Assembly (NCBI RefSeq): GCF_024297145.1
Contig: NZ_JANCTC010000023.1
Location: 1-64,000 of the forward strand
Source of the DNA: Mesorhizobium sp. LMG 17147
Lineage (GTDB): Bacteria; Pseudomonadota; Alphaproteobacteria; Rhizobiales; Rhizobiaceae
Direction of reading: 5' to 3'
Length of the DNA stretch: 64,000 bases
Part shown: piece after piece, positions 3,257 through 63,403 of the stretch
Position numbering within the stretch: the stretch's first letter is position 1
Layout of the letters: every line of letters begins with the position of its first letter
The notes under the pieces: generated by a model
Seen by the model: the letters and a program-made list of their open reading frames with translations, nothing else
Database searches by the model: none
What the model was told of the DNA's origin: nothing
Program-made: the position numbers and the translations under genes

Positions 3257-4150
3257 TTAATCCTGGCTAGCATCGACCCCGACGAGGCGAGCCGCGGCGT
3301 TGCGGATCGGCATGTCGATGACCGTGATTGCGCCTTCGGCAAGGAAACGACGTTCGTTTCTGGTCAGCGTAGCCGAATCGATCACCGCAAAATGTGGGCC
3401 AGTGGAGCGCTTCATCATCTGTCTGGCATATGTGCGCAGCATCTGATCGTTGAAGCGACAGCCAACGAAGAAAAAGCCCCGGTTGACGCGCCGTTGCTTC
3501 ACCACGTCCGGGATCGGCGTCTGGATATCAATTTCGGTTAGGACTTCGACGTAATCGGAATCAGCCACGAGGAAGTTTGCGGCCGGCCTGACGCTGCCGT
3601 GCGGCGCATAGAGCACCGTCCTTGCCACTTGTTCGGCGTCGAGTTCTGTTCCTGACAAATCGTAAGTTCTCGTCCAGATGTTACCAATTCCGGTCGCGCG
3701 CGTGGTTCCTTGTATCTCGACAACGTCTGTTTGGCCGGCCTCTGCAAGGGCTGCTCGCATGGCGCCATCGTACCAGCTGTCGATGATGACAGACAGTTGA
3801 AGGGTTGCGAGCCAGGCGTGAAGAACGGTCGGCTCGGCGGGGGCTGCGAATATCTCCGCCATCCACGCTTGAAGAGTCCGACGATGTCGGCGCTGCTCGA
3901 TAAACTGCGCGACCGACCACATATTGGTGCGGATCCTGGAAGGGGCAGGCGCCCGCTTGTTGAGTGCCGCGGCGACATCTTCCGGGGTGCAAGGTACAGG
4001 TGATTCCGGCGCGTTAAGCTGCAGAAGACCAGGACCGAGATAGGGGATCACTCGATCGGCCTTGAGAGCGCCCTTCAGCAGGTCAATCAGCTTTTTGGCA
4101 AAACTGCCCCGGACGACGACGAGATGGTCCCAGCTCAGCATCGTGTTCAT
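3257..4150 (-). CDS. SIR2-like domain protein in the nifB operon
   Basis: 297 aa. Residues ~30-60 contain DRVIPYLGPGLL, resembling the nucleotide-binding start of SIR2-like (SIR2_2) domains. A later block RRVNRGFFFVGCRFNDQMLRTYARQM also matches that family's C-terminal pattern. It is the last gene of nifB-fdxN-nifZ-fixU, 34 bp after fixU on the same strand, so probably co-expressed with nitrogenase cofactor genes. I recall similar proteins next to nifB in other rhizobia but know no proven role. Protein deacylation or NAD binding is inference from the fold only. Confidence 0.7.
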   Translation of the reverse strand: MNTMLSWDHLVVVRGSFAKKLIDLLKGALKADRVIPYLGPGLLQLNAPESPVPCTPEDVAAALNKRAPAPSRIRTNMWSVAQFIEQRRHRRTLQAWMAEIFAAPAEPTVLHAWLATLQLSVIIDSWYDGAMRAALAEAGQTDVVEIQGTTRATGIGNIWTRTYDLSGTELDAEQVARTVLYAPHGSVRPAANFLVADSDYVEVLTEIDIQTPIPDVVKQRRVNRGFFFVGCRFNDQMLRTYARQMMKRSTGPHFAVIDSATLTRNERRFLAEGAITVIDMPIRNAAARLVGVDASQD

Positions 4151-17909: not shown

Positions 17910-19180
17910 GAATGAGTTCTCCGGCTAGGAGCTGTTGCAGCAGGGGTGGCTACATCGCCGGGGATCAAAGCCGCGAGACCTTCCGGCGGCGGCCAGTCGG
18001 CATCAGTCGAGGCCTCGGCGCCCGACGCATCCGAGGCCTCATCGGAGGGCCGACGGACCCAACCGTCGACAATGCGGGAGAGTTCTCGGCGCGGTCGCAT
18101 CGATCGCATTCGTCGAAGTGCGGCCTGTTCACTGCGAACCAAGCAAGCCGAACGCGGTGTCCTCGATCGAGGCCTTGATTGGGGGATGATCGACGATCTC
18201 TATATTGCTTTGAAGCAGGAAGTTCCGTCGCCATATGTGGTTATCCTGGCAGCCAGAATTGAGCGGTTGTCGCAAGCACCAAGGCGGTCGCAATGAGTGC
18301 AACGAGGCGGAAGTCTGATCGATGGCTGCGGTTCGATGGCCGCGCGATCGACAAAATTGAGGTGATGAGTTATCCCTTTTGAAGCCGTTGCTCCCAATTT
18401 TGGGATAAGGTGATTGCAGGCGGTCCCAGCAACGTCGGGCGGCCTTTTTGGTGATCGAATTCATGGGACGACACTCTCGGTCCGTGACGCATCTGCGAAT
18501 GACTGCGCAAGTTCCGTGCCATCAACGACAAATCTGGCTCTGCTGAGCGGGTGGTGGAGGCACGAGCGTGGGCTATCCCAAGAGCTTGCCGCAAGGTTGT
18601 TCGAAGTTGAGGTGCCGGATAGACCGCAAATATGTCGGGCGGCCTGGGGTTGGCCAACACGAAGATGCGCAAGTTCAAAAGGACGAGCTGAACCCTTGCC
18701 GATATCCGTCCGAGGCTGATCTGGAGAAGGTCAAGAACTGCGTCTTGAAGGCTTCCGCCGCACCGGCAAATGCGAAGCCAAGGTGCTGGGCAAGATGGAC
18801 AGGGCCATCCAACCCGTCGACTGGACGCTCATGGCGTCGGTGTGGCTCTGTAGCTGGCGAGAAAAACGCCCTGCTGAAAGACAAAAGCTCGTGTGGCCGG
18901 CTCTGAAGGACGGCCAATGAGGCAGGCGAGGAGAGGCTATAGTCCATTCGTGTAGACTGATCTTGTCCCACGGAGGCGGCTAACCACCCCGCCAGACATC
19001 ATCGAGGGGAGCGCCACTAGGCTCACCCCAAGTGTTGGTCATTTCCACCTGGGTGACCTCGGCCAAGTCACCAAGCCGCTTAGCGCAAGCTTTCGAACTG
19101 GATGCTCCCCGGGCACATGATCGGCTAGCGATCCCACCAGTTGAGTTGCTCCAAGTCGGTGTCTAGCTTTCTACATTCTG
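17910..19180. other. 1.27-kb region without a supportable gene
   Basis: Many short overlapping frames on both strands (for example around 17946-18296 and 18568-18906), none with a domain I recognise. Base composition and broken frames suggest remnants of mobile or accessory DNA. The P450 control region begins right after it. Confidence 0.35.
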
Positions 19181-19196
19181 TGTCCGACGCTGGACA
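19181..19196. promoter_or_regulatory. NifA upstream activator site for the P450 operon
   Basis: TGT-CCGACGCTGG-ACA, a perfect TGT-N10-ACA, about 85-100 bp upstream of the -24 element. Confidence 0.82.
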
Positions 19197-19279
19197 AGAA
19201 TGTTGCAATCCCGACCAGCAAGTCAGCGCAGGCGCCACCTGCTGCCCAGCAAACAGCAAGGATTATCGAAAGACGAATT

Positions 19280-19295
19280 CGGCACGGAGCTTGCA
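19280..19295 (+). promoter_or_regulatory. Sigma-54 promoter of the P450 operon
   Basis: CGGCACG-GAGC-TTGCA matches the consensus at all positions except the first. It predicts a transcript start at about 19306, directly before the first ATG of the P450 frame. Confidence 0.88.
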
Positions 19296-19306
19296 CCAAC
19301 GATTGC

Positions 19307-20572
19307 ATGCAAATGCCGACAGCATCTCATGAACGGTCTCTCGATTCTGGCGCGGTTAAATCGCGGCCGGTTCCAGATCATGTCCCGCCCGAAATGGTGA
19401 GGGACTTCAACCTGTTTACGTCGCCCGGCATGTTGCCGACCGCTAACGGGGATCCGCATGCAGCGGTTGCTTGCATTCATGCCGGGCCTCCGATCTTTTA
19501 TTCAACCAGCAACACGCGCGACGGTCGGGGTACCTGGGTCATCACTCGCGCGAGCGACCAGCGCCGGGTGCTGCAGGACACCGAAACGTTTTCCAGCCAT
19601 CGCAGCATCTTCGCCTCTGTGCTCGGCGAGAGCTGGCCGATGATCCCGCTTGAGCTCGATCCGCCATTCCACGGTGTTTTTCGCTCACTGCTCAATCCGC
19701 TGCTTTCGCCAAAGCGGGTAATGGCATTGGAGCCGGCTGTCCGGGAACGAGCGATCAAGCTGATCGACAGGATCGCCGCATCAGGCACGAGCTGCGACAT
19801 CATGAAGGATTTTGCAGTTCCGTTCGCGGTCAATATCTTCCTTCGCTTTATTGGGCTTTCGGACGACGGACTAGAAACATTTGTCGGCTGGGCTAGAGAT
19901 CTGCTCCACGGCGATAAGGAGCAACGACCACCCGCAGCCCGGACGATCGTGGCCTTCATCGACGAACTTGCCACCGAGCGCCGCAAGGAGCCGGTCGATG
20001 ATTTCATGACCTTCATCGTGAAGGCAAAGGTCGAGGGCCGTCTGCTCAGTGACGAAGAAGTCCGTGGCATCGGCGTGCTTGTGTTTGTCGCGGGGCTCGA
20101 CACGGTCTCAGCAGCCATATGCTTCGACTTGGCCCATCTCGCGCGCAACCCCAAAGATCAGGAATTGCTACGAAGCGAACCGGACCGGACTGCCGTCGCT
20201 GCGGAAGAATTGCTGCGCGCCTATTCGACCATTCAGATGATCCGAGTGGCAACGAAGGATGTCGACTTCAAAGGCGCGCCGATCCGCAAGGGAGACTATG
20301 TTTCCTGTGCCACGATGATTGCCAATCGTGACCCGGCGGAATTCGAATGCCCGAATGAGATCGATCTGGCGCGCGAGGACAACCGGCACGCTGCCTTTGG
20401 CTATGGTCCCCATCGTTGTCTTGGCTCACACCTTGCCCGGCGGGAGATTGTCATTGGCCTGGAGGAGTGGCTGGCGCGCATCCCAGCCTTTCGGATCAAG
20501 ACAGGGACTGAACCTATCACCTTCGGCGGCCATGTGTTCGGGATCGAGAATCTGATCCTGGACTGGTCCTGA
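19307..20572 (+). CDS. Cytochrome P450 (CYP127-like)
   Basis: 421 aa, soluble bacterial class. I-helix AGLDTVSA, ExxR as EELLR, and the heme-binding loop [17 protein letters not shown] with the thiolate ligand at Cys371. First gene of an operon with a ferredoxin-SnoaL fusion, a double SDR and an LLM oxidoreductase, resembling the y4vG-J set of Sinorhizobium fredii NGR234, known to me as a NifA-linked locus. The substrate is unknown. The predicted sigma-54 transcript begins almost at the ATG (19307; second ATG 19313), so the message would be leaderless unless translation starts later, for example at 19394. Confidence 0.9.
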
Positions 20573-20601
20573 AGTTTCAGCCAACGACATTGGAGTTCGC
20601 T

Positions 20602-21450
20602 ATGCGTGTCGTCGTACATAAAGCCAGATGCCAGGGTCATGCGCGCTGCTGGGCGCGGGCGCCGAGAGTCTTCAAGCTTGATGACGCCGGCTACATCTTG
20701 CCCGGTGATATTGATGTTGCCGATGGGGAGCAACTGCTTGCCTCAAAAGGGGTACGAGCCTGCCCCGAACAAGCTCTGGAAGTTGACGAGCCCCCCGCTA
20801 ACTCAGTTGTAGAGAGAGACACACGCAAAGTGCAGACTGGCATCGGGAAGGATAAAACAATCATACAATTCGCGACAGACCCTGTCGACCACGCGAAAAT
20901 TACCGAACTGCGTGACCGAGAGGCGATCCGCAACTGCCTGTATCGGTACTGCCGCGGGATAGACCGCGCCGATGAGGCGGCGCTGCGTAGCGCATACTGG
21001 CCCGAAGCGTATGACAGGCACGGTCCCTATTGCGGACCGGCAGAGGACTTCATCCAATTTGCTCTCGGTCTGCCGGGGCACCGTAATATCCATCAAATCA
21101 CGAACAGCCTGATCGACTTCATCAGTTCAGCAGAGGCCGCGGTCGAGAGCTATTTCACCGCGCTGCAACGCGGACCGGATACAGACCAAGAAATACGTCA
21201 GACGCTGCTTTGCGGCCGTTACTGCGATCTGTTTCAGAAGAGGCAGGACGAGTGGCGAATTGCGGAACGGACAGTCGTCTACGATTGGGTTGAGGAGCAA
21301 ATCCCGCCAGCGATTCTTGAGGCAGATAGGTTCGGCCGGCGACAGCCGATTGGAGCACCACATCCAGACGATCCCATCTACCAGTTGCTCAAGGGTCACA
21401 TCCCCACCGACCAAGATGGCGTCGAGGGTCCCCAACTGGGAGCTGCATAA
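20602..21450 (+). CDS. Ferredoxin fused to a SnoaL-like domain
   Basis: 282 aa from [10 protein letters not shown]. Residues 1-65 form a P450-type ferredoxin: [19 protein letters not shown], then [11 protein letters not shown]. Three cysteines in C-x5-C...CP suggest a [3Fe-4S] cluster, the usual donor for bacterial P450s. After a linker, residues ~95-230 ([62 protein letters not shown]) resemble SnoaL-like/NTF2-fold ring hydroxylases or cyclases. GGAG lies 6 bases before the ATG; a TTG at 20590 is possible. It begins 29 bp after the P450. Confidence 0.85.
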
Positions 21451-21598
21451 GTGGGTAGAAATGGAGGATGAGCGCCCTACGGGAACGACATCTGTGTGGG
21501 GCCGCAACTGGCGGTCACTGCAACGATTTGGCTCGGCCCTTCATTCCGCCCAAGGTTGATGGGCTGAGATCACAAGCGGTCATCGTGGAGAAGCTCTC

Positions 21599-23200
21599 GT
21601 GAAACTGGCAGCACGCACCGTAATCATCACAGGCGCTGCGGGCGGGATCGGCCGTGCCCTGGTCGATATCCTTGCCGCGGACGGAGACACTGTAGTTGCG
21701 GTGGACCTTCCGGGCAGTGGTGTGGTTGAACTGGCTCGGGATCTCGGGTCGCCGCACGTCGGTCTGGAGTGCGATGTGTCGCGAGAGAAGGACATGCTCT
21801 CACTTTTCGGCCAGGTCGAAGCACGGTTCGCGCAAATCGATGTCCTCATCAACAATGCGGCGGTTGGACCCACGATGGATAGGATCATCGACACCGCTGT
21901 CGATACCTTCCGACGCGGCGTGACAGTGAACCTTATTGGGCCATTCGTTATGGCCCGGGAAGCGGCGCGGCGCATGAAGCCGGGCGGTGCGATCGTCAAT
22001 GTGGCTTCGATGGCGGGCGTGGTCGGCAATCCCAGGCGCAACGCCTACGCAGCCTCGAAAGCTGGCGTGATCTCGTTGACAAAGTCCCTTGCATGCGAGT
22101 GGGCTATGCGAGGAATCCGCGTCACGGCGGTGGCGCCGGGCTCCGTCCGCACCCCAATGGTCACAGAACTGGCACGCGCTGGCAAAATGGACCTCGCGGC
22201 GATACGCCGCCGCGTGCCGATGGGGCGCTTGGCTCGCCCCGACGAGATCGCCAGGGTCGTGCGTTTTCTGAGCAGCACGCAGGCGCGCTACATCACCGGC
22301 TCGGTGCTGGCAGTCGACGGAGGCTGGATGTCATTCAACCAGCCGGGGGATGCTCACCCGCCGGTGGATGGTGCGCTCCAAGCCGAGCTCTCCTGTCCGG
22401 CCGAATGCACAGATGCGCGAATCGTGCTCGTCACCGGTGGCGCAAAAAGCATTGGCGCGGCCGTCGCTCGCCGCTTTGCCGCGAACGGCGACACCGTCGT
22501 GATTGCTGATAAAGATGGCACTGCAGCGGCAGAGCTGGCTACATCGCTCCCCGGCAAGCATCTGGCGAAATCGCTGGACGTGGCCGTCGAGAGCGATGTG
22601 GTGTCGATGTTCGAAGAACTGAGGGGACGCTTCGGGTATATCGATGTTCTGGTCAATAGTGCTGATACCGCCGACAGGATTGTGCCTGCGATCGAGCAAC
22701 TGTCGAAACAGCTCGAACACGTCCTGGATGTCAACCTTACCGGCGCCTTCACCTGCGCGCGCGAAGCGATCAAGGCTATGCGCCCGGGCGGCGTGATCCT
22801 CAATCTCGGGTCGATCGACAGCTTTCTGCCGTTCGCGCCGCGCCATGCCTACGGCGCCTCCAAGGCGGGGATGGATATGCTGACCCGTTGCATGGCGGCC
22901 GAACTCGGGCCGGTCGGAATTCGGACAGCCACCGTCGCTCCTGGCCACATCCGCACGCCCGCACTTGCTCAGTTGGCCAAAGCCGGCCGCATCGACCTGG
23001 CAGCAATCGGACGACGCATCCCCATGGGCAGGATGGGACGGCCAGAAGACGTCGCAGATGCATCGTTCTTCCTTGCTTCGTCTGACGCCTCATACATCAA
23101 CGGCTCGATCCTCTACGTGGACGGCGGCTGGACCTCGTTCGGTGATGCGGGAAACGCCAGCGAACTCTATGACGAATGTTTTGCGGAGGCCGCAGGTTAA
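21599..23200 (+). CDS. Tandem short-chain dehydrogenase/reductase fusion
   Basis: 533 aa containing two complete SDR modules. Module 1: ITGAAGGIGRA near residue 10, Ser/Tyr/Lys with YAASKAG (Tyr about 150, Lys about 154), ending AVDGGWMSF. Module 2: TGGAKSIGAAVA near 279, YGASKAG (Tyr about 418), ending YVDGGWTSF. Each has a Rossmann nucleotide motif and the active-site Y-x3-K, so both look catalytic. It starts with GTG behind GGAG, 148 bp after the ferredoxin fusion. It probably oxidises or reduces the P450 product. Confidence 0.9.
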   Translation: MKLAARTVIITGAAGGIGRALVDILAADGDTVVAVDLPGSGVVELARDLGSPHVGLECDVSREKDMLSLFGQVEARFAQIDVLINNAAVGPTMDRIIDTAVDTFRRGVTVNLIGPFVMAREAARRMKPGGAIVNVASMAGVVGNPRRNAYAASKAGVISLTKSLACEWAMRGIRVTAVAPGSVRTPMVTELARAGKMDLAAIRRRVPMGRLARPDEIARVVRFLSSTQARYITGSVLAVDGGWMSFNQPGDAHPPVDGALQAELSCPAECTDARIVLVTGGAKSIGAAVARRFAANGDTVVIADKDGTAAAELATSLPGKHLAKSLDVAVESDVVSMFEELRGRFGYIDVLVNSADTADRIVPAIEQLSKQLEHVLDVNLTGAFTCAREAIKAMRPGGVILNLGSIDSFLPFAPRHAYGASKAGMDMLTRCMAAELGPVGIRTATVAPGHIRTPALAQLAKAGRIDLAAIGRRIPMGRMGRPEDVADASFFLASSDASYINGSILYVDGGWTSFGDAGNASELYDECFAEAAG

Positions 23201-23337
23201 TTGCCAGGCCTTCGCAGGCGACCGGCCGAGCATTATGAAGCCTCGGCTCCACGACGCACCCGAGGTGCTTGAGATCCAAGCATGTGCATGCCGAGCACAT
23301 TCCCGGTCGGCTGACGTGTCTATAACGAGGAGAAATC

Positions 23338-24390
23338 ATGGAATTTGCCACGTTCATTCTGGCCGCCCAGCGTGGCTATCACCAATCCTCAGAAAGCGTC
23401 ATCCGCAACTCCATCGAACAGGCCGTCGCTTCGGAGCAGGCTGGGTTCAACACCGCGTGGTTTGCTGAGCACCACTTCAACAATTACAGCCTCATACCAT
23501 CCCCGCTGATGATGGTGGCGCACTGCGCCGGCTTGACAAGCACGATTCGCCTGGGCACTGCCGTCTGCGTGCTGCCGCTTTACCAACCGCAGCGCCTGCT
23601 GTCCGAGATCGGCTTCGCCGACATCGTTGCGAACGGCCGTCTCGAGCTCGGCGTAGGCTTGGGATACCAGCAGTTCGAGTTCGAACGGTTCGGCGTGGAC
23701 ATCAATGAGGCGCCGGCCGTCTTTTCGGAATACCTGGACATCATTCTCAAGGGCCTCAACCAAAACGTCTTCGAACACGACGGCCAGTATGAGAAGATCC
23801 CCCCAACAGCGATTTCGGTCCGCACAGTCCAGCAGCCGACGCCGCCTATCTGGATCGCTGGCGGAGCCGCACGGATGGCTCGGGCCTACCGCGACGGGCA
23901 CAATTTTTTTGTCACAGCCTTCCACGACGGCTTAGAGACTTTGACCACACTGCGTGAATCAGTCGAGAGGGCGGCGGCATCCGAGGAAAAGAACGTCACC
24001 GACGTCAAGATATCGCTGCTGCGCTGCTGCTATGCCAGCCACGACGAGTTGGAGATCAACAGCTATCTCGACAATGCCCGCTTCCAGCGCCGGCTTTCTG
24101 AAGCCCTGCATCAGCGCCGCCAACAGAGCCACGATGGCTATCTGCTGCAGGAGACACCGACCCAGCAGGATCTGTCCTTCGACACCATGCGCAAAAATTT
24201 GCCGATTGGCAGCGTAAATCGCGTGATTGATCGCCTGCTGGAAGAGATCGATATCTTGAAACCGGACCAGATCGCAGTTCAGACTCAATTGGGCGACTTC
24301 GACCAAAAGACGATGCTGCGCCAGATCGAGCTCTGGGGCGACAAGATCATCCCTGCGGTCAACAAGGCGCTTTGTCATGCCGGAAGCTGA
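23338..24390 (+). CDS. LLM-class flavin-dependent oxidoreductase
   Basis: 350 aa of the bacterial luciferase-like fold: EFATFILAAQRGYHQSS at the N-terminus, FNTAWFAEHHFNNYSLIPSP, then IRLGTAVCVLPLYQPQRLLSEI and GRLELGVGLGYQQFEFERFG. These enzymes use FMNH2 or F420 and O2 for monooxygenation. Fourth gene of the P450 operon, 137 bp after the SDR fusion, with GAGGAG before the ATG. Its end overlaps the start of nifQ. Confidence 0.9.
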   Translation: MEFATFILAAQRGYHQSSESVIRNSIEQAVASEQAGFNTAWFAEHHFNNYSLIPSPLMMVAHCAGLTSTIRLGTAVCVLPLYQPQRLLSEIGFADIVANGRLELGVGLGYQQFEFERFGVDINEAPAVFSEYLDIILKGLNQNVFEHDGQYEKIPPTAISVRTVQQPTPPIWIAGGAARMARAYRDGHNFFVTAFHDGLETLTTLRESVERAAASEEKNVTDVKISLLRCCYASHDELEINSYLDNARFQRRLSEALHQRRQQSHDGYLLQETPTQQDLSFDTMRKNLPIGSVNRVIDRLLEEIDILKPDQIAVQTQLGDFDQKTMLRQIELWGDKIIPAVNKALCHAGS

Positions 24391-25004
24391 AGCCGGCCGT
24401 TACGATGATGGCTGCCTATCCACGCGCGCAATGGCGTGGGTCCGAGCTAGGAAGGAGCTTCGATCAGCATGTGCTGCCCTGCGTGCTTTCGCGTTCGCTT
24501 GAGGAGGTCCAGGCGGGCGAGGTGTTGGCGACGGAGGGGACAGGCCTTTCGTCTGTCGAATTGCGTGATGTCTTGGCCGCAACTTTCCCGTCTACCTCCA
24601 GCAGCGTATTCGCTTTGGAGGAGTTGAGCGAGCCCGAGCCGGAACTGGAAGAGGAGCTGCTGCGCCGGCTGCTGCTAGCGCATGCTGCGCCGGGCGACCC
24701 GGCGAGCGCCCGCTTGGCCAAGATCATCGCCCGGCGTGCGATGCGCACGGACCATCTTTGGCGGGATCTTGGCCTCTCAAATCGCGCTGAGCTCAGCCGC
24801 CTGCTTGCCAGACATTTTCCCGCGCTGGCGGCAGGCAACACAAAAAACATGAAATGGAAAAAGTACTTTTACCGCAAGCTGTGTGAGGCCGAAGGCTTTT
24901 CGTCATGCACTGCACCCAGTTGTCGGGAATGCCATGACTTCGAAAGCTGCTTCGGCCCGGAGGAAGTTGAGAGTCGCCTCTCGCCGACCAGGAATGTCGG
25001 TTAG
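24372..25004 (+). CDS. nifQ: NifQ, molybdenum donor for FeMo-co
   Basis: 210 aa. The C-terminal metal motif of NifQ is complete: CTAPSCRECHDFESC (C-x4-C-x2-C-x5-C), preceded by MKWKKYFYRKLCEAEGF. NifQ carries a Mo-Fe-S cluster and hands molybdenum to NifEN/NifH. The chosen ATG overlaps the LLM gene by 19 bases and has AAGG upstream; MMAAYPR at 24405 is an alternative start. The 3' end overlaps the convergent rpoN end by 4 bases. Confidence 0.9.
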   Translation: MSCRKLKPAVTMMAAYPRAQWRGSELGRSFDQHVLPCVLSRSLEEVQAGEVLATEGTGLSSVELRDVLAATFPSTSSSVFALEELSEPEPELEEELLRRLLLAHAAPGDPASARLAKIIARRAMRTDHLWRDLGLSNRAELSRLLARHFPALAAGNTKNMKWKKYFYRKLCEAEGFSSCTAPSCRECHDFESCFGPEEVESRLSPTRNVG

Positions 25005-29390: not shown

Positions 29391-30587
29391 ATGTGCGATG
29401 CAAAACTGAAGACCGTGCTTTCGCTTTTTTCGCCGGTGGCCAGCAAATTAGATGCTCTCTCGTCCAACGGACCAGCGACGGATGCAAATTGCGTTAAGCT
29501 AAATACGAACGAGAACCCGTTTCCGTTGCCGAAGAGCGTAATGCAAAGTGCAATTGCTGCGATCGAACACCAGTATCTTTATCCGGAAGACGACAATCTC
29601 AGCTTAAGGGCAGCTGCCTCCGACACTTACGGATTTTCCAAAGATCAGGTGATTGCCGGCAACGGTTCGTCGGAACTGCTCGGACTCATCTACAGAGCTT
29701 TCCTCGCCCCAGGAGATAGAGTGGCGATGCTGTCGCCCGGATTTTCGTTCAACCGTAAACTTGCCATGTTGCAGGGTGCCGAGTTTCTCGAAATCGCATC
29801 GAGCGAAGCTCATCCCCTGCCGATAGAAAAACTGCTGTCCGGCCCCGCAAAAGACGCGAAGTTCATTCTGTTGGCTAATCCGAACAATCCGACCGGAACA
29901 TTCGTGCCGGTGGCCGAAATCGAACGCCTTGTGGAGCAAGCAGATCGCTTGATCGTCTTGGATGAGGCCTACGTTGACTTCGCACCCGACCATGCCCTGC
30001 GCCTCGTCAATAGGCATCCGAATCTTTTGATCTTGAGGACTTTTTCAAAGAGCTATGCTGCCGCTGGCGTGCGAGTCGGCTTCGGTTTCGGTCACCCAGA
30101 AATCATTGGCAGGCTGCGCAACATCCAGAATGTCTTCAACATGAACGTGATCGGGCAGGCGGTCGGGAAAAGCATTCTTGCGCATCGCCACGCCTACGAA
30201 GAGAACCACAGGCACATCAAGCATGAACGACAGCGAGTGACCCTGGCGCTGTTGCAACTTGGCTTTTCAGTAACACCCTCCCACGCAAACTTTTTGCTGG
30301 CCCGTGTGCCGGCGGGACAGGAGGGCTCATGCTGGCAAGCCGCGTTGAAAGAGCAGAAGATCCTCATCGCCAGCTTTCCTGACATAGATTTGAAGAACTG
30401 CATTCGCGTCAGCATTGGCACCACAGAGCAGATGGACAAATTCCTTGCTGCCGCCAAAAACGTTTGTATGAACGTTAAGAGGAATCGCGGTATGCACAAG
30501 CATGAAGTCAATTCACATTGCTTTGGAAATGTATCAAGTAATAAGTGTCGATGTGTTGTGAGTTATGATGTTTCCAATAGTGGATAA
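29391..30587 (+). CDS. hisC: Histidinol-phosphate aminotransferase-like protein
   Basis: 398 aa PLP aminotransferase, class I/II fold. KLNTNENPFPLP at the N-terminus, NPNNPTGTF, LIVLDEAYVDF, and the PLP-lysine in LRTFSKSYAAAGVRVGFG identify the HisC subgroup. HisC converts imidazole-acetol phosphate to histidinol phosphate, but symbiotic paralogues may act on other amino acids. The last ~35 residues are AT-rich and not family-like, so the original gene may have ended near residue 360. GGAG lies 6 bases before the ATG. The next gene follows by 27 bp. Confidence 0.85.
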   Translation: MCDAKLKTVLSLFSPVASKLDALSSNGPATDANCVKLNTNENPFPLPKSVMQSAIAAIEHQYLYPEDDNLSLRAAASDTYGFSKDQVIAGNGSSELLGLIYRAFLAPGDRVAMLSPGFSFNRKLAMLQGAEFLEIASSEAHPLPIEKLLSGPAKDAKFILLANPNNPTGTFVPVAEIERLVEQADRLIVLDEAYVDFAPDHALRLVNRHPNLLILRTFSKSYAAAGVRVGFGFGHPEIIGRLRNIQNVFNMNVIGQAVGKSILAHRHAYEENHRHIKHERQRVTLALLQLGFSVTPSHANFLLARVPAGQEGSCWQAALKEQKILIASFPDIDLKNCIRVSIGTTEQMDKFLAAAKNVCMNVKRNRGMHKHEVNSHCFGNVSSNKCRCVVSYDVSNSG

Positions 30588-30614
30588 ATCATAGGTAATT
30601 TGGAGAATAATTAA

Positions 30615-31649
30615 TTGAAGAAAATTTTCGCTTCGGGCCTGACCTTCGGCATCTTCGATCATCTGGACGAAAACGGCGATGACATCGCCCAACAATATGC
30701 AGATCGGCTGAGCCTAGCAGAAGCGTGCGATGGCTATGGCTTTTATGCGTATCATCTCGCAGAGCACCACTGTACGCCGCATGGCAGAGGTCCATCACCG
30801 AATTTGTTCTTAGCGAGCGTCGCCCAGCGAACCCGCAGTCTTCGTGTTGGTCCCATGGTAATGCTACTTGCGCTCTATCATCCGCTGCGTGCCTTCGAGG
30901 AGATCTGCATGCTTGATCAGTTGAGCGGCGGCAGGCTTGAACTCGGCATAGGGCGCGGCTCTGCTCCGACTGAATTGGGATACTTCGGGGTTGCTGTAGA
31001 AGCAGCACCAGAACAGTATGCGGAGGCCAGCGAGATTCTCATCAATGCGATGAAAGGCGGGACGCTTTCTTATCAGGGCCGCCACTTTGAGTTGAAAGAC
31101 GTTCCGCTGACGTTGAGACCTCACCAATATCCCCATCCGCCGACATGGATCGCCACCAATCGACCCGAGCCGGCTAGCTGGGCCGCCGCGAATGGGGCAA
31201 ACATCGCCTGCGTCGGACCTTCCACTTCTGTTCGCAGCGTTACCGACGCGTTCCGCGCCGCCCGAATTCACGATGCTGACATTGGCCACCAAGCGCCATT
31301 TCTTGGATTGCTCCGAATGGTGGTGATAGAGCGTTCTGAAACAGATGCGTATTTGCTCGCAGCACCTGCCTATGAACGATGGCTCAAGAGCTTCAAATTT
31401 CTATACGAACTAAATGCCATTCCCACTCCACCAAACTTGCCTCTGAACTTCGATGCAGCAATTGAAAGTGAATTGTGCGTCGTGGGAACGGCAGCTTCTG
31501 TCCGAAAAGCTCTCCTTGATCAGTTGGAAGAGGCAGGTGCTAATTATCTTCTGTGTCAACTGGCATTTGGGGATTTGCCGCTGGATGCGTCCCTATACAC
31601 CGCATCGACCATTCGATCCGAAATCATGGCTCGAGTTGGCGCATCGTGA
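30615..31649 (+). CDS. LLM-class flavin-dependent oxidoreductase, second paralogue
   Basis: 344 aa starting with TTG behind GGAG. Luciferase-like signatures: FGIFDHLDENGDDIAQQYADRL, YGFYAYHLAEHHCTP, LRVGPMVMLLALYHPLRAFEEI and GRLELGIGRGSAPTELGYFG. It lies 27 bp after hisC, so the two are probably co-expressed. Lower G+C in this stretch than in the nif genes hints at separate acquisition. The substrate is unknown; it differs clearly from the paralogue at 23338. Confidence 0.88.
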   Translation: MKKIFASGLTFGIFDHLDENGDDIAQQYADRLSLAEACDGYGFYAYHLAEHHCTPHGRGPSPNLFLASVAQRTRSLRVGPMVMLLALYHPLRAFEEICMLDQLSGGRLELGIGRGSAPTELGYFGVAVEAAPEQYAEASEILINAMKGGTLSYQGRHFELKDVPLTLRPHQYPHPPTWIATNRPEPASWAAANGANIACVGPSTSVRSVTDAFRAARIHDADIGHQAPFLGLLRMVVIERSETDAYLLAAPAYERWLKSFKFLYELNAIPTPPNLPLNFDAAIESELCVVGTAASVRKALLDQLEEAGANYLLCQLAFGDLPLDASLYTASTIRSEIMARVGAS

Positions 31650-31728
31650 AATCCGTTGCGTGATTGGAGGAGCAGCGGCAGCGCTGCTCCTCATTCCGAA
31701 ACGGTTGTGGGGCCGAACTCTTGTGTCA

Positions 31729-32330
31729 GGCGTAAACCACTAGAGCACGTCCTGTTTGATCCAGTTCATATCCTGCGGCTTTGAAGTAGTTGGCACATTC
31801 GGCTGGGGTGAAGAGGTCGACGACCGCGCCGACGCGTCTCATAGAGCCTTGATGGTTCTCTCGGCTTTGCTCGCAGCAGCGCCTTAAGTTTGGCGAAGGC
31901 GTTCTCAATCGGATTGAAGTCGGGACTGTAGGGCGGCAGGTAGAGCAGGCTCGCGCCTGCGGCCTCAATCGCGTCGCGCACGCCGGCGGCCTTGTGGGCG
32001 GGCAGGTCGCCCATGACGACTACGTCGCCCCGCGACAATGTCGGTGAAGGCCTTGGTCTTCCAGTGGCATGTGGCACGCCGGCCTGGCAGCGCTCGCCGC
32101 GCAGGGTTCTCCAGGCGGATGTCGCCAATGTCAAATTTGCTGGCATCCATGCCGCCATCGCTTTCTGGTTCCAGATCGAAAAATCGCCGAATGGAACCAG
32201 CGCATCAACCTGCGCCTCAAGGAGCTCACTGCCACTTTCGGTCGGCGGGGTGTGCCGCCCCACAAATAGAACATCAATTGTCGTGCCAACCGCGCAAGCG
32301 AAGGCCAGAAAGCCAACCTGTGTTTCTACG
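31729..32330 (-). pseudogene. IS630-family transposase relic
   Basis: Minus-strand frames give [40 protein letters not shown] and [14 protein letters not shown], the DDE core of IS630 transposases, then [23 protein letters not shown] after a frameshift. Several frame breaks and a missing first half show it is inactive. Confidence 0.82.
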
Positions 32331-32556
32331 GCTTAATTGAGAGGCAGCCGATGTCGGCCGAACATCACCTTGTCTCGAAGTCGACGAATCCGACAGCAGG
32401 TTGCGAAAGTGCGCGCGACGCGAACAAACTGCTGAAGCGCTCAACTCTTATTGATCACGCGTGTTGGACGCGAACCATTCTCGTTCCAATCGGGCTGAGC
32501 GCAAATTCTCCCGGTTCACAAAATTGCGTTGCTGGAGTAGTGGGGGCGCAGAGAAA
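32331..32556. other. Upstream region of queC
   Basis: Gap between the IS630 relic and the riboswitch. No gene or sigma-54 element seen; the queC promoter is presumably here. Confidence 0.35.
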
Positions 32557-32558
32557 TC

Positions 32559-32590
32559 TCCGGTCGCAGCCTTACCCGGTCAAAACAAGG
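32559..32590 (+). promoter_or_regulatory. preQ1-I-like riboswitch controlling queC
   Basis: Pieces in order: stem CCGG (32560-32563), loop TCGCAG, CCTTAC, closing CCGG (32576-32579), then tail CAAAACAAGG (32581-32590). The loop and the A-rich tail ending in AAGG match the class I preQ1 aptamer of Thermoanaerobacter tengcongensis (loop UCGCAG, tail CAAAACAAGG). The AAGG is also the Shine-Dalgarno of queC, six bases before the ATG, so preQ1 binding would hide it and block translation. Confidence 0.8.
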
Positions 32591-32596
32591 ATACCA

Positions 32597-33298
32597 ATGA
32601 TGAAGACTCTCGCCGTCTGCTCTGGCGGATTGGACTCCGTTTCCCTTGCTCGCATGGTGGCAGCGGAGCATGAACTCACCGGCCTTCTATCTTTCGACTA
32701 TGGCCAACGGCACAGGAAGGAATTGGGCTTCGCCGCTCTTTGCGCGGAGCGACTGAAGGTCCCGCACCAGATCATCGACCTCCGCGAAATTGGCCGTGGC
32801 CTTTCCGGCTCAGCGCTCACCGACAGTGTCGACGTGCCGGACGGCCATTACGCCGAAGATACTATGAAGATTACGGTGGTGCCGAACCGCAATGCCATCA
32901 TGTTTGCAATCGCCTTCGGGCTGGCCGCCACGCATAAGGCAGAAGCGGTGGCGGCGGCCGTGCATGGTGGGGATCATTTCATCTATCCAGATTGCCGTCC
33001 GGCCTTCATCGAAGCTTTCCAGACAATGCAAGACCGCGCGCTCGACGGCTATGCGCAGATACGCCTCTATGCACCGTACGTGAACCTCGGAAAAGCTGAC
33101 ATTGTGGCGGATGGCGCAAGATACGGCACCCCGTTTGCCGAGACCTGGTCCTGTTACAAGGGCGGCGTGCGTCACTGCGGGCGATGCGGGACCTGCGTCG
33201 AGCGGCGCGAAGCGTTCCATCTCGCCGGGCACGCTGATCCCACCGACTACGAGGACGCCGATTTCTGGCTCGAGGCACTCCGCAGGAGGCGCGCGTAA
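32597..33298 (+). CDS. queC: QueC, 7-cyano-7-deazaguanine (preQ0) synthase
   Basis: 233 aa. The PP-loop ATPase motif is SGGLDS near the N-terminus, followed by SFDYGQRHRKEL. VPNRNAIMFAIAFGLA and AVHGGDHFIYPDCRP are family blocks, and four cysteines near the end (SCYKGGVRHCGRCGTCVER) bind zinc. QueC turns carboxy-deazaguanine into preQ0 in queuosine synthesis. The start was set by the AAGG of the riboswitch, although the frame is open further upstream. It overlaps queD by one base. Confidence 0.94.
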   Translation: MMKTLAVCSGGLDSVSLARMVAAEHELTGLLSFDYGQRHRKELGFAALCAERLKVPHQIIDLREIGRGLSGSALTDSVDVPDGHYAEDTMKITVVPNRNAIMFAIAFGLAATHKAEAVAAAVHGGDHFIYPDCRPAFIEAFQTMQDRALDGYAQIRLYAPYVNLGKADIVADGARYGTPFAETWSCYKGGVRHCGRCGTCVERREAFHLAGHADPTDYEDADFWLEALRRRRA

Positions 33299-33654
33299 TG
33301 TTCCACATCAGCAAGGAATTCCACTTCTCGGCCTCGCATCAGCTCACCTCCTTGCCCCCCAACCATCAATGTGCGCGCCTGCACGGGCATAACTATATCG
33401 TCGTAGTGGAGCTATCGGCCAAGGAACTGGACGCCCGCGGCTTCGTGCGCGACTATCACGATCTGGCGCCGCTCAAACGCTATATTGACGAGAGCTTCGA
33501 CCATCGGCACCTCAACGACGTGCTGGGACATGAGAAAGTCACGGCGGAATGCCTGGCCAGACATTTCTATGAATGGTGCAAGGCACGTCTGCCGCAGACC
33601 ACGGCCGTGCGCGTTAGCGAAACACCGAAAACTTGGGCGGAATACCGTCCGTGA
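33298..33654 (+). CDS. queD: QueD, 6-carboxytetrahydropterin synthase
   Basis: 118 aa. Zinc-binding His residues appear in [24 protein letters not shown], with the catalytic Cys in [36 protein letters not shown] completes the site. It converts dihydroneopterin triphosphate to 6-carboxy-tetrahydropterin. Its ATG overlaps the TAA of queC and its TGA overlaps the GTG of queE, so the three are translationally coupled. Confidence 0.94.
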
Positions 33655-34385
33655 CCGACATGCATCCCGCAATCCGTGTGAGCGAGATATTTGGGCCGAC
33701 GATCCAGGGCGAGGGCGTGCTCATCGGCTTGCCGACGGTGTTCATCAGAACCGGCGGATGTGATTATCGCTGTTCATGGTGCGACAGCCTTCACGCGGTG
33801 GACAATCAGTATCGCAATGAATGGCTACCGATGCCGATCGATGCCGTGTGGCAAACCGTCCATGCGCTTTCCGGCGGCAGGCCGGTTATGGTCTCCTTGT
33901 CAGGCGGCAACCCGGCCATTCAGCCGTTCGGTCCCCTCATAGAACGAGGCCATCGCGAGGGCTATCGTTTTGCACTGGAAACGCAGGGTTCCGTGGTGAG
34001 GGAGTGGTTTGCGGATCTTGACGTGCTGATCCTTAGCCCAAAGCCGCCGTCCAGCGAAATGACGACCAGTTGGGCTGCGTTTGAGGCGTGCCTCGAAGCG
34101 GCGCAAGAGAAGCCGCAAATCGTGCTCAAGCTCGTCGTTTTCGACGAGAGTGACTATGCCTACGCCAAAGAAGTCGCGGCGCGATATCCGCACCTTCCGA
34201 TCTATCTGCAACCCGGCAATCACACGCCGCCGCGCCCTGGCAGTGAAGACACCTCTGTCGACTTGGACGGAATAATGATGCGAATGGAATGGCTTGTCGA
34301 AAGGGTGACCAGCGACAGGTGGTTCGAAGCCCGCGTGTTGCCGCAGCTGCACGTTCTGCTTTGGGGTAACAAGAGGGCGGTCTAG
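33651..34385 (+). CDS. queE: QueE, 7-carboxy-7-deazaguanine synthase
   Basis: 244 aa from the GTG overlapping the queD stop (GTGA); ATG 33660 ([12 protein letters not shown]) is an alternative. Radical SAM enzyme with Cys in [12 protein letters not shown] (C-x3-C-x2-C) and FGPTIQGEG upstream. The island copy has queC, D and E but no queF, tgt or folE in this window, so the pathway must be completed by chromosomal genes. Confidence 0.93.
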
Positions 34386-47187: not shown

Positions 47188-48486
47188 GTGGACCTCTTTT
47201 GCATTGGTATCGGTGCTGGGCCGTCTAATTTGAGCCTTGCGTGTCAGATACAGGAAGAGATTGCGCAAGGGGCACTGTTCCTGGATCGGCAGGTTGATTT
47301 CCGCGGACATCCAGGCAGCGCTTTCGATTGCGCGGAGCTCCAGGTCGGCCACTTCCAGGATCTGGTTACTCTGGTCAATCCGCGATCAGCCTACACATTC
47401 GTAAACTACCTCCACGAGAACGGGCGTCTTTACCATTTCCTCAATGCGCAATTTCACGGGGTGCTCAGAGCCGAGTTCGCTCAATATCTCAACTGGGCGT
47501 TCCAGAAGAATCCGCTTGTCCGTGGCGGCGAGGCCGTTCGCGAAATCCGCTTTGACGGCGAGTTTCGCGTGCGGACGGACAACGCGGTCCTTGATGCGAG
47601 AAACCTCGTCATCGACATAGGCAAGCAGGCGCAAATTCCGCCTCAGTTTCATGGCTGGACTGGACCCAACCTGTTCCACTCATCTGAGTTGGCCCACATC
47701 AATCCTGAGGTGCAAAAAAAGCATGTCTGCGTTGTTGGCGGCGGACAGTCGGGAGCCGAGCTGCTGCTGCACCTTGTCGGCCGGCCGAAAGAACGGCGGC
47801 CCGCGGCGATCACTTGGGTCTTGACGCGCGAGATGCCTTTCGACGACCACCCGTTCACAAACGAGCTGTTCACGCCTTGCTTTTCGGATCGTTTTGCGGC
47901 CATGAGCGAGGTGCATCGCCAGCTGTTCCTGCGGCGTTTCGCGCTTGCCTCCGACGGGATTTCAGAAAGCACGTTGCGCGCGGTCTATCAGGCGCTCTAC
48001 CACCACGCCTTTCTCGAGCCACACCAATGCGACATCACACTGCGGCCAAGTTGCAACGTGTCGCGCTGCATCAACGCAGGGGCGGGGCACAGGCTCACGC
48101 TGCAGCGCGGCATGGATAACATCGGAGAAGTAACCGCGGACATCGTCATCCTGGCCATGGGGTACGAGAACGCGCTGCCGGACTTCCTGGAACCGATCGC
48201 AGATCGCCTCGAGCAGATCGGCAATGAGCTCGCCACCGGCGAGGATTTTTCGGTGTACTGGGACGGACCGCGAGACAGACGCCTTTTCGTTCAGAACGCC
48301 TGCCTTGGACAGCGCGGGCTGGCTGATCCGAACTTTGGCCTGCTGGCCTGGCGAGCGCGCCGCATCCTGGACAGCCTTCTGGGGCGCCCGCCATGCACCA
48401 ATCCCGAGCATCTGGGCTTCATCAGCCGTACGTTGATCGAGCGCCGGCCCGACCTCGTAGCCGAAGAAATGGGCAGCGGGATATAA
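47188..48486 (+). CDS. Lysine/ornithine N-monooxygenase-like flavoprotein (SidA/IucD/PvdA type)
   Basis: 432 aa, GTG start behind AGGAGCAAGG. The FAD site is CIGIGAGPSNLSLACQ at the N-terminus. QVGHFQDLVTLVNPRSAYTFVNYLHENGRL is the hallmark block of siderophore N-hydroxylases, and the NADPH site is VCVVGGGQSGAELLLHL. ATGYEN-type motif reads LAMGYENALPDF. These enzymes N-hydroxylate ornithine, lysine or diamines for hydroxamate siderophores. No siderophore synthetase lies nearby. A sigma-54 promoter upstream suggests expression in nodules. Confidence 0.85.
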   Translation: MDLFCIGIGAGPSNLSLACQIQEEIAQGALFLDRQVDFRGHPGSAFDCAELQVGHFQDLVTLVNPRSAYTFVNYLHENGRLYHFLNAQFHGVLRAEFAQYLNWAFQKNPLVRGGEAVREIRFDGEFRVRTDNAVLDARNLVIDIGKQAQIPPQFHGWTGPNLFHSSELAHINPEVQKKHVCVVGGGQSGAELLLHLVGRPKERRPAAITWVLTREMPFDDHPFTNELFTPCFSDRFAAMSEVHRQLFLRRFALASDGISESTLRAVYQALYHHAFLEPHQCDITLRPSCNVSRCINAGAGHRLTLQRGMDNIGEVTADIVILAMGYENALPDFLEPIADRLEQIGNELATGEDFSVYWDGPRDRRLFVQNACLGQRGLADPNFGLLAWRARRILDSLLGRPPCTNPEHLGFISRTLIERRPDLVAEEMGSGI

Positions 48487-53430: not shown

Positions 53431-53446
53431 TGGCACGCCCATTGCT
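53431..53446 (+). promoter_or_regulatory. Sigma-54 promoter of the TlpA-like gene
   Basis: TGGCACG-CCCA-TTGCT, a near-perfect -24/-12 element. Predicted transcript start about 53457, 140 bases before the likely ATG. Confidence 0.88.
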
Positions 53447-62560: not shown

Positions 62561-63403
62561 GTGATTTTGCCGGAACTTCGCTTAGCAAACACAGCCGGCA
62601 GGGTTTTGGAGATAACGACGACCACGGGATGTGTCGTAGGATGTTCATATTGTCCCCAGGACAAGTTCGCGGTCCGGCAAAGAAAAGTGTCTCATGCGAG
62701 TCATCTGGGTCTTGAAGATTTCAAGCGGTGTCTAGCCCGCGTACCGGCTTCCGTCGACATTGGTTTTGCGGGATACTCCGAACCTTGGCTCAATCCGGAC
62801 TGCACCGAAATGGTGGAGCACGCCTTCGCCAAAGGCCATGGCATCAGGATTTTTACGACGCTGGTGGGAATGAACGGGCAGGACCTGCAACGATTGCAAG
62901 CCTTGCGCTTGGGCGTATTCGTGGTTCATGTTTTCGATGATGGCACCTACATGAACAGCCGCCTGGTCGGAGACAAGTATCGCGATCTGGTTCGTCAACT
63001 CGTCGACGCGGATATCCCCTTGATCCGGTTCGTGGCTTTGGGCGAGCCCCACCCAGATATAGCCGACATTATTCCTACCGAAGCACTGATAAAAGCGCGG
63101 CCCATGAGCAGTAGGGGTGGAAGCGTCGACCCTAAGATCGTTGCACCACGCCAGCCAGTGGTCGGAGCCCTAACCTGCGTGGACGAACGGCAGTATCGGA
63201 ATGTTCTTCTTCCAAACAGCGACGTTACCCTGTGCTCCATGGATTTTGAACGGCGTCACGTATTGGGCAACCTTCTATATGAGGGTTACTCCGCTCTGTT
63301 TGAAAAGCCAGTTTTTCGCGAAATCGTCGACCGCATGAATGGAGCGGATGGTTTTCTGCTTTGCAGAATGTGTGAATTCGCCGACCCAAACGACCGGACC
63401 TGA
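62561..63403 (+). CDS. Radical SAM protein with SPASM-like C-terminal cysteines
   Basis: 280 aa, GTG start behind GGGAG. The radical SAM motif is CVVGCSYC (C-x3-C-x2-C) near residue 24. Further Cys residues at LTCVDER, TLCSMDFE and LLCRMCE near the C-terminus fit an auxiliary (SPASM/twitch) Fe-S cluster, as in peptide- or sugar-modifying enzymes. VDIGFAGYSEPWLNPD is the post-motif strand region of this fold. Substrate unknown; no precursor peptide gene was recognised nearby. It could be read from the sigma-54 promoter at 62162. Confidence 0.82.
   Translation: MILPELRLANTAGRVLEITTTTGCVVGCSYCPQDKFAVRQRKVSHASHLGLEDFKRCLARVPASVDIGFAGYSEPWLNPDCTEMVEHAFAKGHGIRIFTTLVGMNGQDLQRLQALRLGVFVVHVFDDGTYMNSRLVGDKYRDLVRQLVDADIPLIRFVALGEPHPDIADIIPTEALIKARPMSSRGGSVDPKIVAPRQPVVGALTCVDERQYRNVLLPNSDVTLCSMDFERRHVLGNLLYEGYSALFEKPVFREIVDRMNGADGFLLCRMCEFADPNDRT

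Follow-up and report, generated by a model that had tools for sequence, protein, structure and literature searches.

What is oxidized by a cytochrome P450, a ferredoxin, a double dehydrogenase and a luciferase-like monooxygenase whose genes stand behind a nitrogen-fixation promoter and directly ahead of nifQ? The question is raised by a locus at 19160-25004 (plus strand) in a stretch of 64,000 nucleotides from Mesorhizobium sp. LMG 17147 (NZ_JANCTC010000023.1, positions 1 to 64,000), referred to here as the window. The locus carries a NifA/sigma-54 promoter followed by genes for a CYP101-like P450, a ferredoxin fused to a SnoaL domain (Fd::SnoaL), a double short-chain dehydrogenase/reductase (SDR), a luciferase-like monooxygenase (LLM) and nifQ. 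Our best explanation, to which we give about even credence, is an oxidation pathway for a cyclic small molecule, switched on by NifA and sigma-54, in which a P450 and its ferredoxin were placed before a SnoaL-SDR-LLM trio with an ancestry common to a catabolic operon. The features are as follows.

19160-19175 and 19181-19196, plus strand: two NifA upstream activating sequences (UAS), TGT-N10-ACA (motif scan)
19280..19295, plus strand: sigma-54 -24/-12 element, CGGCACG-N4-TTGCA (motif scan); predicted +1 at about 19306, counted by hand
19307..20572, plus strand: cytochrome P450, CYP127A-type, 421 amino acids (aa) (Pfam PF00067)
20602..21450, plus strand: ferredoxin Fer4_15 (aa 3-61) fused to a SnoaL_4 dehydratase-type domain (aa 102-224), 282 aa (Pfam; single open reading frame, ORF)
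21451..21598, plus strand: gap at the position of the flavin reductase gene in catabolic operons (locus comparison)
21599..23200, plus strand: double SDR, PRK06484-like, GTG start, 533 aa (two Pfam SDR domains in one ORF)
23338..24390, plus strand: LLM, 350 aa, proposed type II Baeyer-Villiger monooxygenase (BVMO) (Pfam Bac_luciferase)
24405..25004, plus strand: nifQ, last gene of the unit, first in-frame ATG at 24405 (Pfam NifQ)

ORF, motif and Pfam checks placed the four ORFs, nifQ and the promoter where a preliminary description of this DNA had put them. That description spoke of four redox enzymes; the genes instead encode two oxygenases, one double dehydrogenase and one ferredoxin-dehydratase fusion, of which the SnoaL part is not a redox protein. 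It was right to place nifQ directly behind the LLM gene, as only 14 bp separate the LLM end at 24390 from the first in-frame ATG of nifQ. Given this spacing, nifQ is probably part of the same transcription unit, which the description had closed too early at 24390. The double SDR scored 719 bits against the cut-off of 713 bits for NCBIfam PRK06484, and its translation contains a YxxxK motif in each half.

NifA control and the known operon family

The NifA site alone was not significant, with 13 occurrences of TGT-N10-ACA in the 64-kb window compared with 8.1 +/- 3.1 in shuffles, and promoters were therefore scored only as a pair of UAS and -24/-12 element. Because a strict GC at -12 missed expected promoters, this requirement was relaxed for the final scan. 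The element at 19280 scores 11/12 and has its UAS 83 and 104 bp upstream. Three plus-strand pairs with a score of at least 11 are present in the window, against 0 in 100 shuffled windows, which held 0.03 pairs per window at a score of at least 10. Nine loci (L038, L039, L093, L097, L099, L106, L109, L111 and L121, with L038 and L111 being one record) share the -24 box variant CGGCACG in place of TGGCACG. The loci compared here extend no further than 10 kb to each side, and many are cut off by the end of a contig; "not found", here and below, refers to that stretch. A UAS and -24/-12 pair precedes the first gene, be it nifQ, P450 or SnoaL, in 22 of the 34 symbiotic SnoaL-bearing loci; five more have the -24/-12 element without a UAS, and seven, some of them ending at a contig end, have neither. 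None of eight non-symbiotic loci had the pair in the 900 bp scanned before SnoaL.

Control by NifA and sigma-54, as claimed in the preliminary description, is supported by this promoter sequence and also by published data on M. loti R7A. In nodules, a msi332::lacZ fusion to the orthologous P450 gene gave beta-galactosidase values of 446.6, 273.5 and 14.6 (PMC3538637), which, based on the table legend, we read as wild type, nifA1 and nifA2 mutants, that is, about 30-fold lower expression in nifA2. According to the same source, strain JS53 was scored effective and is a cis-merodiploid in which the msi332 P450 gene was not inactivated; since the gene is intact, its normal symbiosis says nothing about the need for the P450.

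The predicted sigma-54 start at about 19306 abuts the P450 ATG at 19307 (a second ATG lies at 19313), which would leave the message with almost no leader. Relatives sharing this element have between 95 bp (L097) and 334 bp (L121) from promoter to gene. The P450 of the window carries an N-terminal extension.

With P450, SnoaL, double SDR and LLM in this order behind such a promoter, the window belongs to the y4vGHIJ/CYP127A family of NifA operons. The resemblance to y4vGHIJ of S. fredii NGR234 noted in the preliminary description proved to be orthology, at 63-82% identity for these four proteins (L035, nifQ-dctA1-y4vGHIJ); the names y4vG to y4vJ are assigned here to the four NGR234 genes from their order. 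Both loci have a NifA/sigma-54 promoter and linkage to nifQ. In NGR234, however, the promoter lies ahead of nifQ, which comes first together with a dicarboxylate symporter gene, whereas in the window nifQ is last. No ferredoxin match was found in the NGR234 stretch, which therefore lacks the ferredoxin-SnoaL fusion of the window. M. loti R7A msi332-331 comprise a NifA2-dependent P450 and a possible ferredoxin with a sigma-54 promoter, but the table row names only msi332-331, after a nifQ fragment (PMC3538637). The operon itself is thus already known from NGR234 and M. loti, and its chemistry, as far as we have seen, has apparently not been described.

Catabolic relatives of the SnoaL-SDR-LLM genes

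To place the trio, SnoaL relatives were collected from species genomes, taking the best 80 of 543 as ranked by likeness to a Variovorax query. Five non-symbiotic loci of Hyphomicrobiales, including Aquibium and Mesorhizobium sp. L-8-3 (L077, L078, L084, L100 and L107), carry the same three genes in the same order, with 61-84% identity to the window (SnoaL 61-70%, SDR 67-70%, LLM 69-84%). Beside the trio, all five encode an ADP-forming coenzyme A (CoA) ligase and a flavin reductase (the latter 4/5 in a first scan), and four of five encode a SMP-30 lactonase, a Liv-type binding protein and a further SDR. Neither a nif gene nor a P450 of this family was found in these stretches. In L100 the order is SDR2, binding protein, lactonase, ligase, SnoaL, flavin reductase, double SDR and LLM. 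These operons differ from that of the window in having a lactonase, CoA ligase, flavin reductase and transporter instead of P450 and ferredoxin, and the P450-ferredoxin pair occupies the place of the lactonase and ligase. More distant versions, with 43-57% LLM identity, occur in Variovorax, other Comamonadaceae and Sulfitobacter; most of them add two acyl-CoA dehydrogenases and an enoyl-CoA hydratase (22, 22 and 23 of 23, respectively).

At the same thresholds, the degradation genes (ligase, lactonase, binding protein, flavin reductase and others) were found in 0/33 symbiotic loci, a set in which eight were hand-picked from plasmid hits and L038 and L111 are one record. The flavin reductase has nevertheless left remnants in relatives: of the 22 symbiotic gaps behind SnoaL that were searched, seven match the reductase of L100 at E values between 5e-21 and 4e-6, compared with 0.25 hits at E<=0.05 per shuffled set of gaps. 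For the gap of the window itself (21451..21598) the trace is marginal, with E 0.019 in one search and no hit in another. In a quick LLM tree, Variovorax, Sulfitobacter and L078 fall outside, and L077, L084, L100 and L107 form an unresolved fork with the symbiotic LLMs.

Judged by identity and gene order, the SnoaL-SDR-LLM genes of the symbiotic operon share descent with the catabolic operon of non-symbiotic Hyphomicrobiales. A transfer from catabolic to symbiotic operons appears likelier than the reverse, though it is not proven. The idea of a small-molecule pathway, put forward in the preliminary description, is supported, with the product unassigned; given the catabolic descent of the trio, a biosynthetic unit is not our first guess. 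No description of these genes was recognised in the open-access literature on LLM/SnoaL/flavin reductase clusters, on lactonase/BVMO clusters or on bacterial degradation of jasmonate and abscisate. Five points are new as far as we have seen, none of them having been met in the open-access literature searched: the descent shared with catabolic operons, the trace of a flavin reductase, the way LLM alternates with type I BVMO, the agreement between P450 and nifH within the genus, and the fusion of ferredoxin and dehydratase.

One genome without nifH at the limit set (G403) has an LLM of 87% identity and a partial SDR on a contig of 4.7 kb (C70; L159).

Predicted reactions

From the enzyme families we infer the following route. 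The CYP101-like P450, fed by the ferredoxin, would hydroxylate an unactivated carbon, and the double SDR would oxidize the alcohol to a ketone, its two active sites perhaps serving two hydroxyls. The SnoaL domain, resembling LinA and scytalone dehydratase, would then remove water from a beta-hydroxyketone, and the LLM with reduced flavin mononucleotide (FMNH2) would insert oxygen in Baeyer-Villiger fashion. Since lactonase and CoA ligase are not beside the symbiotic genes, the pathway probably converts or inactivates a host- or bacteroid-derived compound and does not serve to feed on it.

The nearest solved structures to the P450 of the window are P450cam and other CYP101 enzymes (E 5.5e-66). 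It is 73.6% identical to the P450 of NGR234, which we take to be CYP127A1. The P450 of M. japonicum bears the name CYP127A3 (PMC8197338). Among 219 genomes surveyed, the nearest relative outside rhizobia has only 38% identity, and the wider survey therefore gave no hint of the substrate. In an alignment with P450cam, the I-helix pair Asp251-Thr252 is retained, and pocket residues, counted by hand, are replaced: Tyr96, the camphor-binding residue, by Trp, Phe87 by Ile, Thr101 by Leu and Ile395 by His. The pocket would thus be mostly apolar but not that of camphor.

Camphor degradation proceeds through P450cam, a dehydrogenase and diketocamphane monooxygenase. The window has the same logic of P450, alcohol dehydrogenase and LLM-type oxygenase, with a P450 nearest to CYP101. 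It differs in that Fer4_15 is not a ferredoxin of putidaredoxin type, in the change of Tyr96 to Trp, in an LLM that is not especially close to diketocamphane monooxygenase, and in the additional SnoaL.

Structure comparison matched the SnoaL fold to LinA, scytalone dehydratase and the bile-acid 7-alpha-dehydratase BaiE. The Asp and His of LinA, its catalytic pair Asp25/His73, are aligned in the SnoaL of the window, and both are invariant in nine SnoaL sequences. In the predicted structure, most of the ferredoxin part of the fusion has a predicted local distance difference test (pLDDT) score below 50, too low to draw anything from its fold.

The LLM is a luciferase-like TIM-barrel oxygenating component based on Pfam and fold comparison. 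Of the 32 sister loci without a detected LLM, 11 hold relatives of type I BVMOs, compared with 0 of 28 loci with LLM; the corresponding P of 0.0004 assumes independent loci, which these are not. The loci counted as LLM-free are the remainder at the thresholds used (LLM of at least 40% identity) and include three remote, hand-picked ones (L045-L047). The type I BVMO candidates are 74-100% identical among themselves, and their nearest solved relative is phenylacetone monooxygenase (E 3.6e-177). Because, among these loci, type I BVMOs occur only where no LLM was detected, Baeyer-Villiger oxidation appears the likeliest reaction of the LLM. There is a precedent for such an activity, since an LLM of the progesterone pdc cluster of Caenibius tardaugens was shown to carry out Baeyer-Villiger oxidation; in the text searched for that cluster SnoaL is not mentioned (PMC12239570).

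Two further indicators of the LLM reaction were rejected. The fold ranking did not single out Baeyer-Villiger enzymes. The SMP-30 lactonase had been considered as proof of lactone formation by the LLM, but it is present in LLM-free loci and often missing in LLM-bearing ones, and is therefore no marker of LLM chemistry.

Several observations weigh against the proposed route. Two oxygen-consuming enzymes under a low-oxygen regulator are odd. The LLM fold is nearer to the Atu2307 monooxygenase, luciferase alpha and RslO1 (Z ~34-36) than to diketocamphane monooxygenase, a solved type II BVMO (Z 28). Of the 11 type I candidates, only three match the BVMO fingerprint FxGxxxHxxxW[PD] exactly. A lactonase is present in only 10 of 23 Variovorax-type loci with LLM, and in 18 of the 32 LLM-free loci. 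In the pdc cluster, the LLM stands beside a type I BVMO that has the same activity (PMC12239570). None of the symbiotic operons examined has kept an intact flavin reductase gene, and FMNH2 for the LLM would have to come from another source; no flavin reductase gene lies beside the LLM in the window, the rest of the genome not having been searched. Finally, the P450-ferredoxin pair, with or without SnoaL, persists without SDR and LLM beside it, and the trio without a P450 beside it.

Distribution, selection and alternative explanations

Co-occurrence across rhizobia, a survey that the preliminary description had proposed, was examined in 146 genomes of the genus. The same 100 genomes carry nifH and the P450 (100/100 nifH-positive, 0/46 nifH-negative), the P450 matches listed contain no stop, and ferredoxin and/or SnoaL are found in these 100 as well. 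The LLM is present in 88 of the 100 and in one nifH-negative genome. As genomes of the genus share symbiosis islands, the Fisher value for this match is not a probability of independent events. Among 397 genomes of the order, five have the P450 and 66 have nifH, with three shared; G023 and G281 are P450-positive without nifH at the limit set, and 63 of the 66 nifH-positive genomes have no such P450. The perfect match of P450 with nifH therefore holds for the genus only and is loose beyond it. A plasmid search found the LLM to be common on Rhizobium and Sinorhizobium plasmids.

Purifying selection was measured as the ratio of nonsynonymous to synonymous substitution (dN/dS). Median pairwise values were 0.18 for P450, 0.34 for ferredoxin, 0.18 for SnoaL, 0.25 for SDR and 0.13 for LLM, based on 8 to 13 sequences per gene, with the non-symbiotic L078 and L100 included in the SnoaL, SDR and LLM sets. 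Between the window and five symbiotic relatives, LLM values were 0.077-0.113. All five genes look kept by selection. Decay is also seen. By locus, the SDR has stops or is short in L040, L041, L087, L091, L093 and L119, and the P450 is fragmentary in L036, L037 and L123; by species, short or broken SDRs occur in S. meliloti, R. etli and others, and P450 fragments in copies from S. meliloti and R. leguminosarum.

The preliminary description had treated the genes as one set. They do form a single unit where all are present, but P450-ferredoxin, P450-ferredoxin-SnoaL and SnoaL-SDR-LLM are each found apart. Modules without SDR and LLM beside them are P450-Fd-nifQ (L160, L164), P450-Fd::SnoaL-nifQ (L162, L163) and P450-Fd-SnoaL near nifHDK (L161). 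In R. tropici (L041) the trio has no P450 beside it, and a single stop interrupts the matched part of its SDR. The P450 of R. jaguaris (H94, H219) lies elsewhere on the plasmid.

Since P450-ferredoxin, with or without SnoaL, also occurs without SDR and LLM, it is possible, though rather doubtful, that two separate functions stand under one NifA promoter, the P450 module going with nif and SDR-LLM doing a partly dispensable second job. The P450 in all 100 nifH-positive genomes and the LLM in 88 are consistent with this, as are the modules L160-L164, the R. tropici trio and the separate P450 of R. jaguaris. Where all genes are present, however, they form one unit behind one promoter, and the LLM has the lowest median dN/dS, unlike a passenger.

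The ferredoxin-dehydratase fusion, an unusual protein design in its own right, suggests a further reading that we regard as speculative and somewhat unlikely: SnoaL would be a tethered dehydratase that rides on the electron donor docking to the P450, meets the freshly hydroxylated product and removes water. P450 and Fd::SnoaL would then act as a nodule-specific net desaturase for a substrate important in nif-bearing mesorhizobia, with SDR-LLM as an optional Baeyer-Villiger ring-opening step. The grounds for this are threefold. Ferredoxin and SnoaL share one stop-free frame in 46 of the 100 nifH-positive genus genomes, 35 of them at 97-100% and 11 at 69-73% identity to the window, among the matches listed. 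Where split homologues start their SnoaL, the window reads GTC and L162 reads ACG, so that the start codon is lost in both. The fusion is still open in L162 and L163, neither of which has SDR or LLM beside it. Relatives vary in having the two proteins fused or separate, or the ferredoxin missing. L163 and L158 keep an internal ATG, from which a separate SnoaL could still be made, and in M. huakuii 7653R the C-terminus of the ferredoxin lies in the SnoaL frame, yet a shift of frame separates the two.

It is unlikely that the operon makes a signal or a hormone-like compound for the plant. Other rhizobial P450 operons make gibberellin. CoA ligase and lactonase of these families were found near none of the 33 symbiotic operons, and the product is therefore not obviously degraded. 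CYP127 occurs together with CYP112, CYP114, CYP117 and CYP173 in 10 species (PMC8197338). On the other hand, the trio is akin to catabolic clusters, and a Pfam search found no prenyl synthase or cyclase in the operon.

A mainly respiratory role, with P450 and LLM as an oxygen sink or redox valve protecting nitrogenase, would fit the NifA control and the listing of a P450 (cpx) among the NifA targets of microoxia adaptation (PMC4999443). We consider it very unlikely: a sink has no need of the dehydratase and the double dehydrogenase, both related to enzymes of catabolism, the flavin reductase of the LLM is lost, and the substrate-processing enzymes have low dN/dS. It is barely credible that the genes are the decaying remains of a catabolic operon that travel with nif. 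Although broken or short SDRs, P450 fragments, flavin reductase remnants and an R7A P450 strain scored effective (PMC3538637) speak for it, no stop interrupts the P450 matches of the 100 nifH-positive genomes, the LLM dN/dS against the five symbiotic relatives is low, and the R7A strain retained its gene.

With the oxidation pathway for a cyclic compound as the preferred reading, a long-known NifA target gains testable chemistry, namely catabolic relatives and a predicted reaction type for each enzyme. If this holds, bacteroids act on one particular cyclic compound during nitrogen fixation, for which a terpenoid, an oxylipin or a hormone of the host is plausible. Free-living Aquibium and Variovorax offer a search for the substrate by simple growth tests. 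Furthermore, the P450 is present in exactly the nifH-bearing genus genomes sampled, yet the only strain found described, the M. loti fusion strain, left the gene intact.

Other genes of the window lie around this operon. Downstream of nifQ are a convergent sigma-54 gene and a peroxiredoxin gene. Near-perfect sigma-54 elements at 53431, 60846 and 62162, the latter two paired with a NifA UAS, precede a peroxiredoxin/thioredoxin-like ORF, a LuxR-type regulator and an ORF without Pfam match (62561-63403), respectively. Between the sigma-54/peroxiredoxin genes and nifH, a row at 29391-34385 encodes an aminotransferase, a second luciferase-like monooxygenase, a QueC-like protein and a weak radical SAM match, possibly a further small-molecule unit. 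A SIR2-like domain protein is encoded in the nif region at 3257-4150, and a lysine/ornithine N-monooxygenase at 47188-48486; in R7A, a sirtuin-like Msi351 is listed behind nifB and an L-lysine 6-monooxygenase (msi280) with a NifA-type promoter (PMC3538637).

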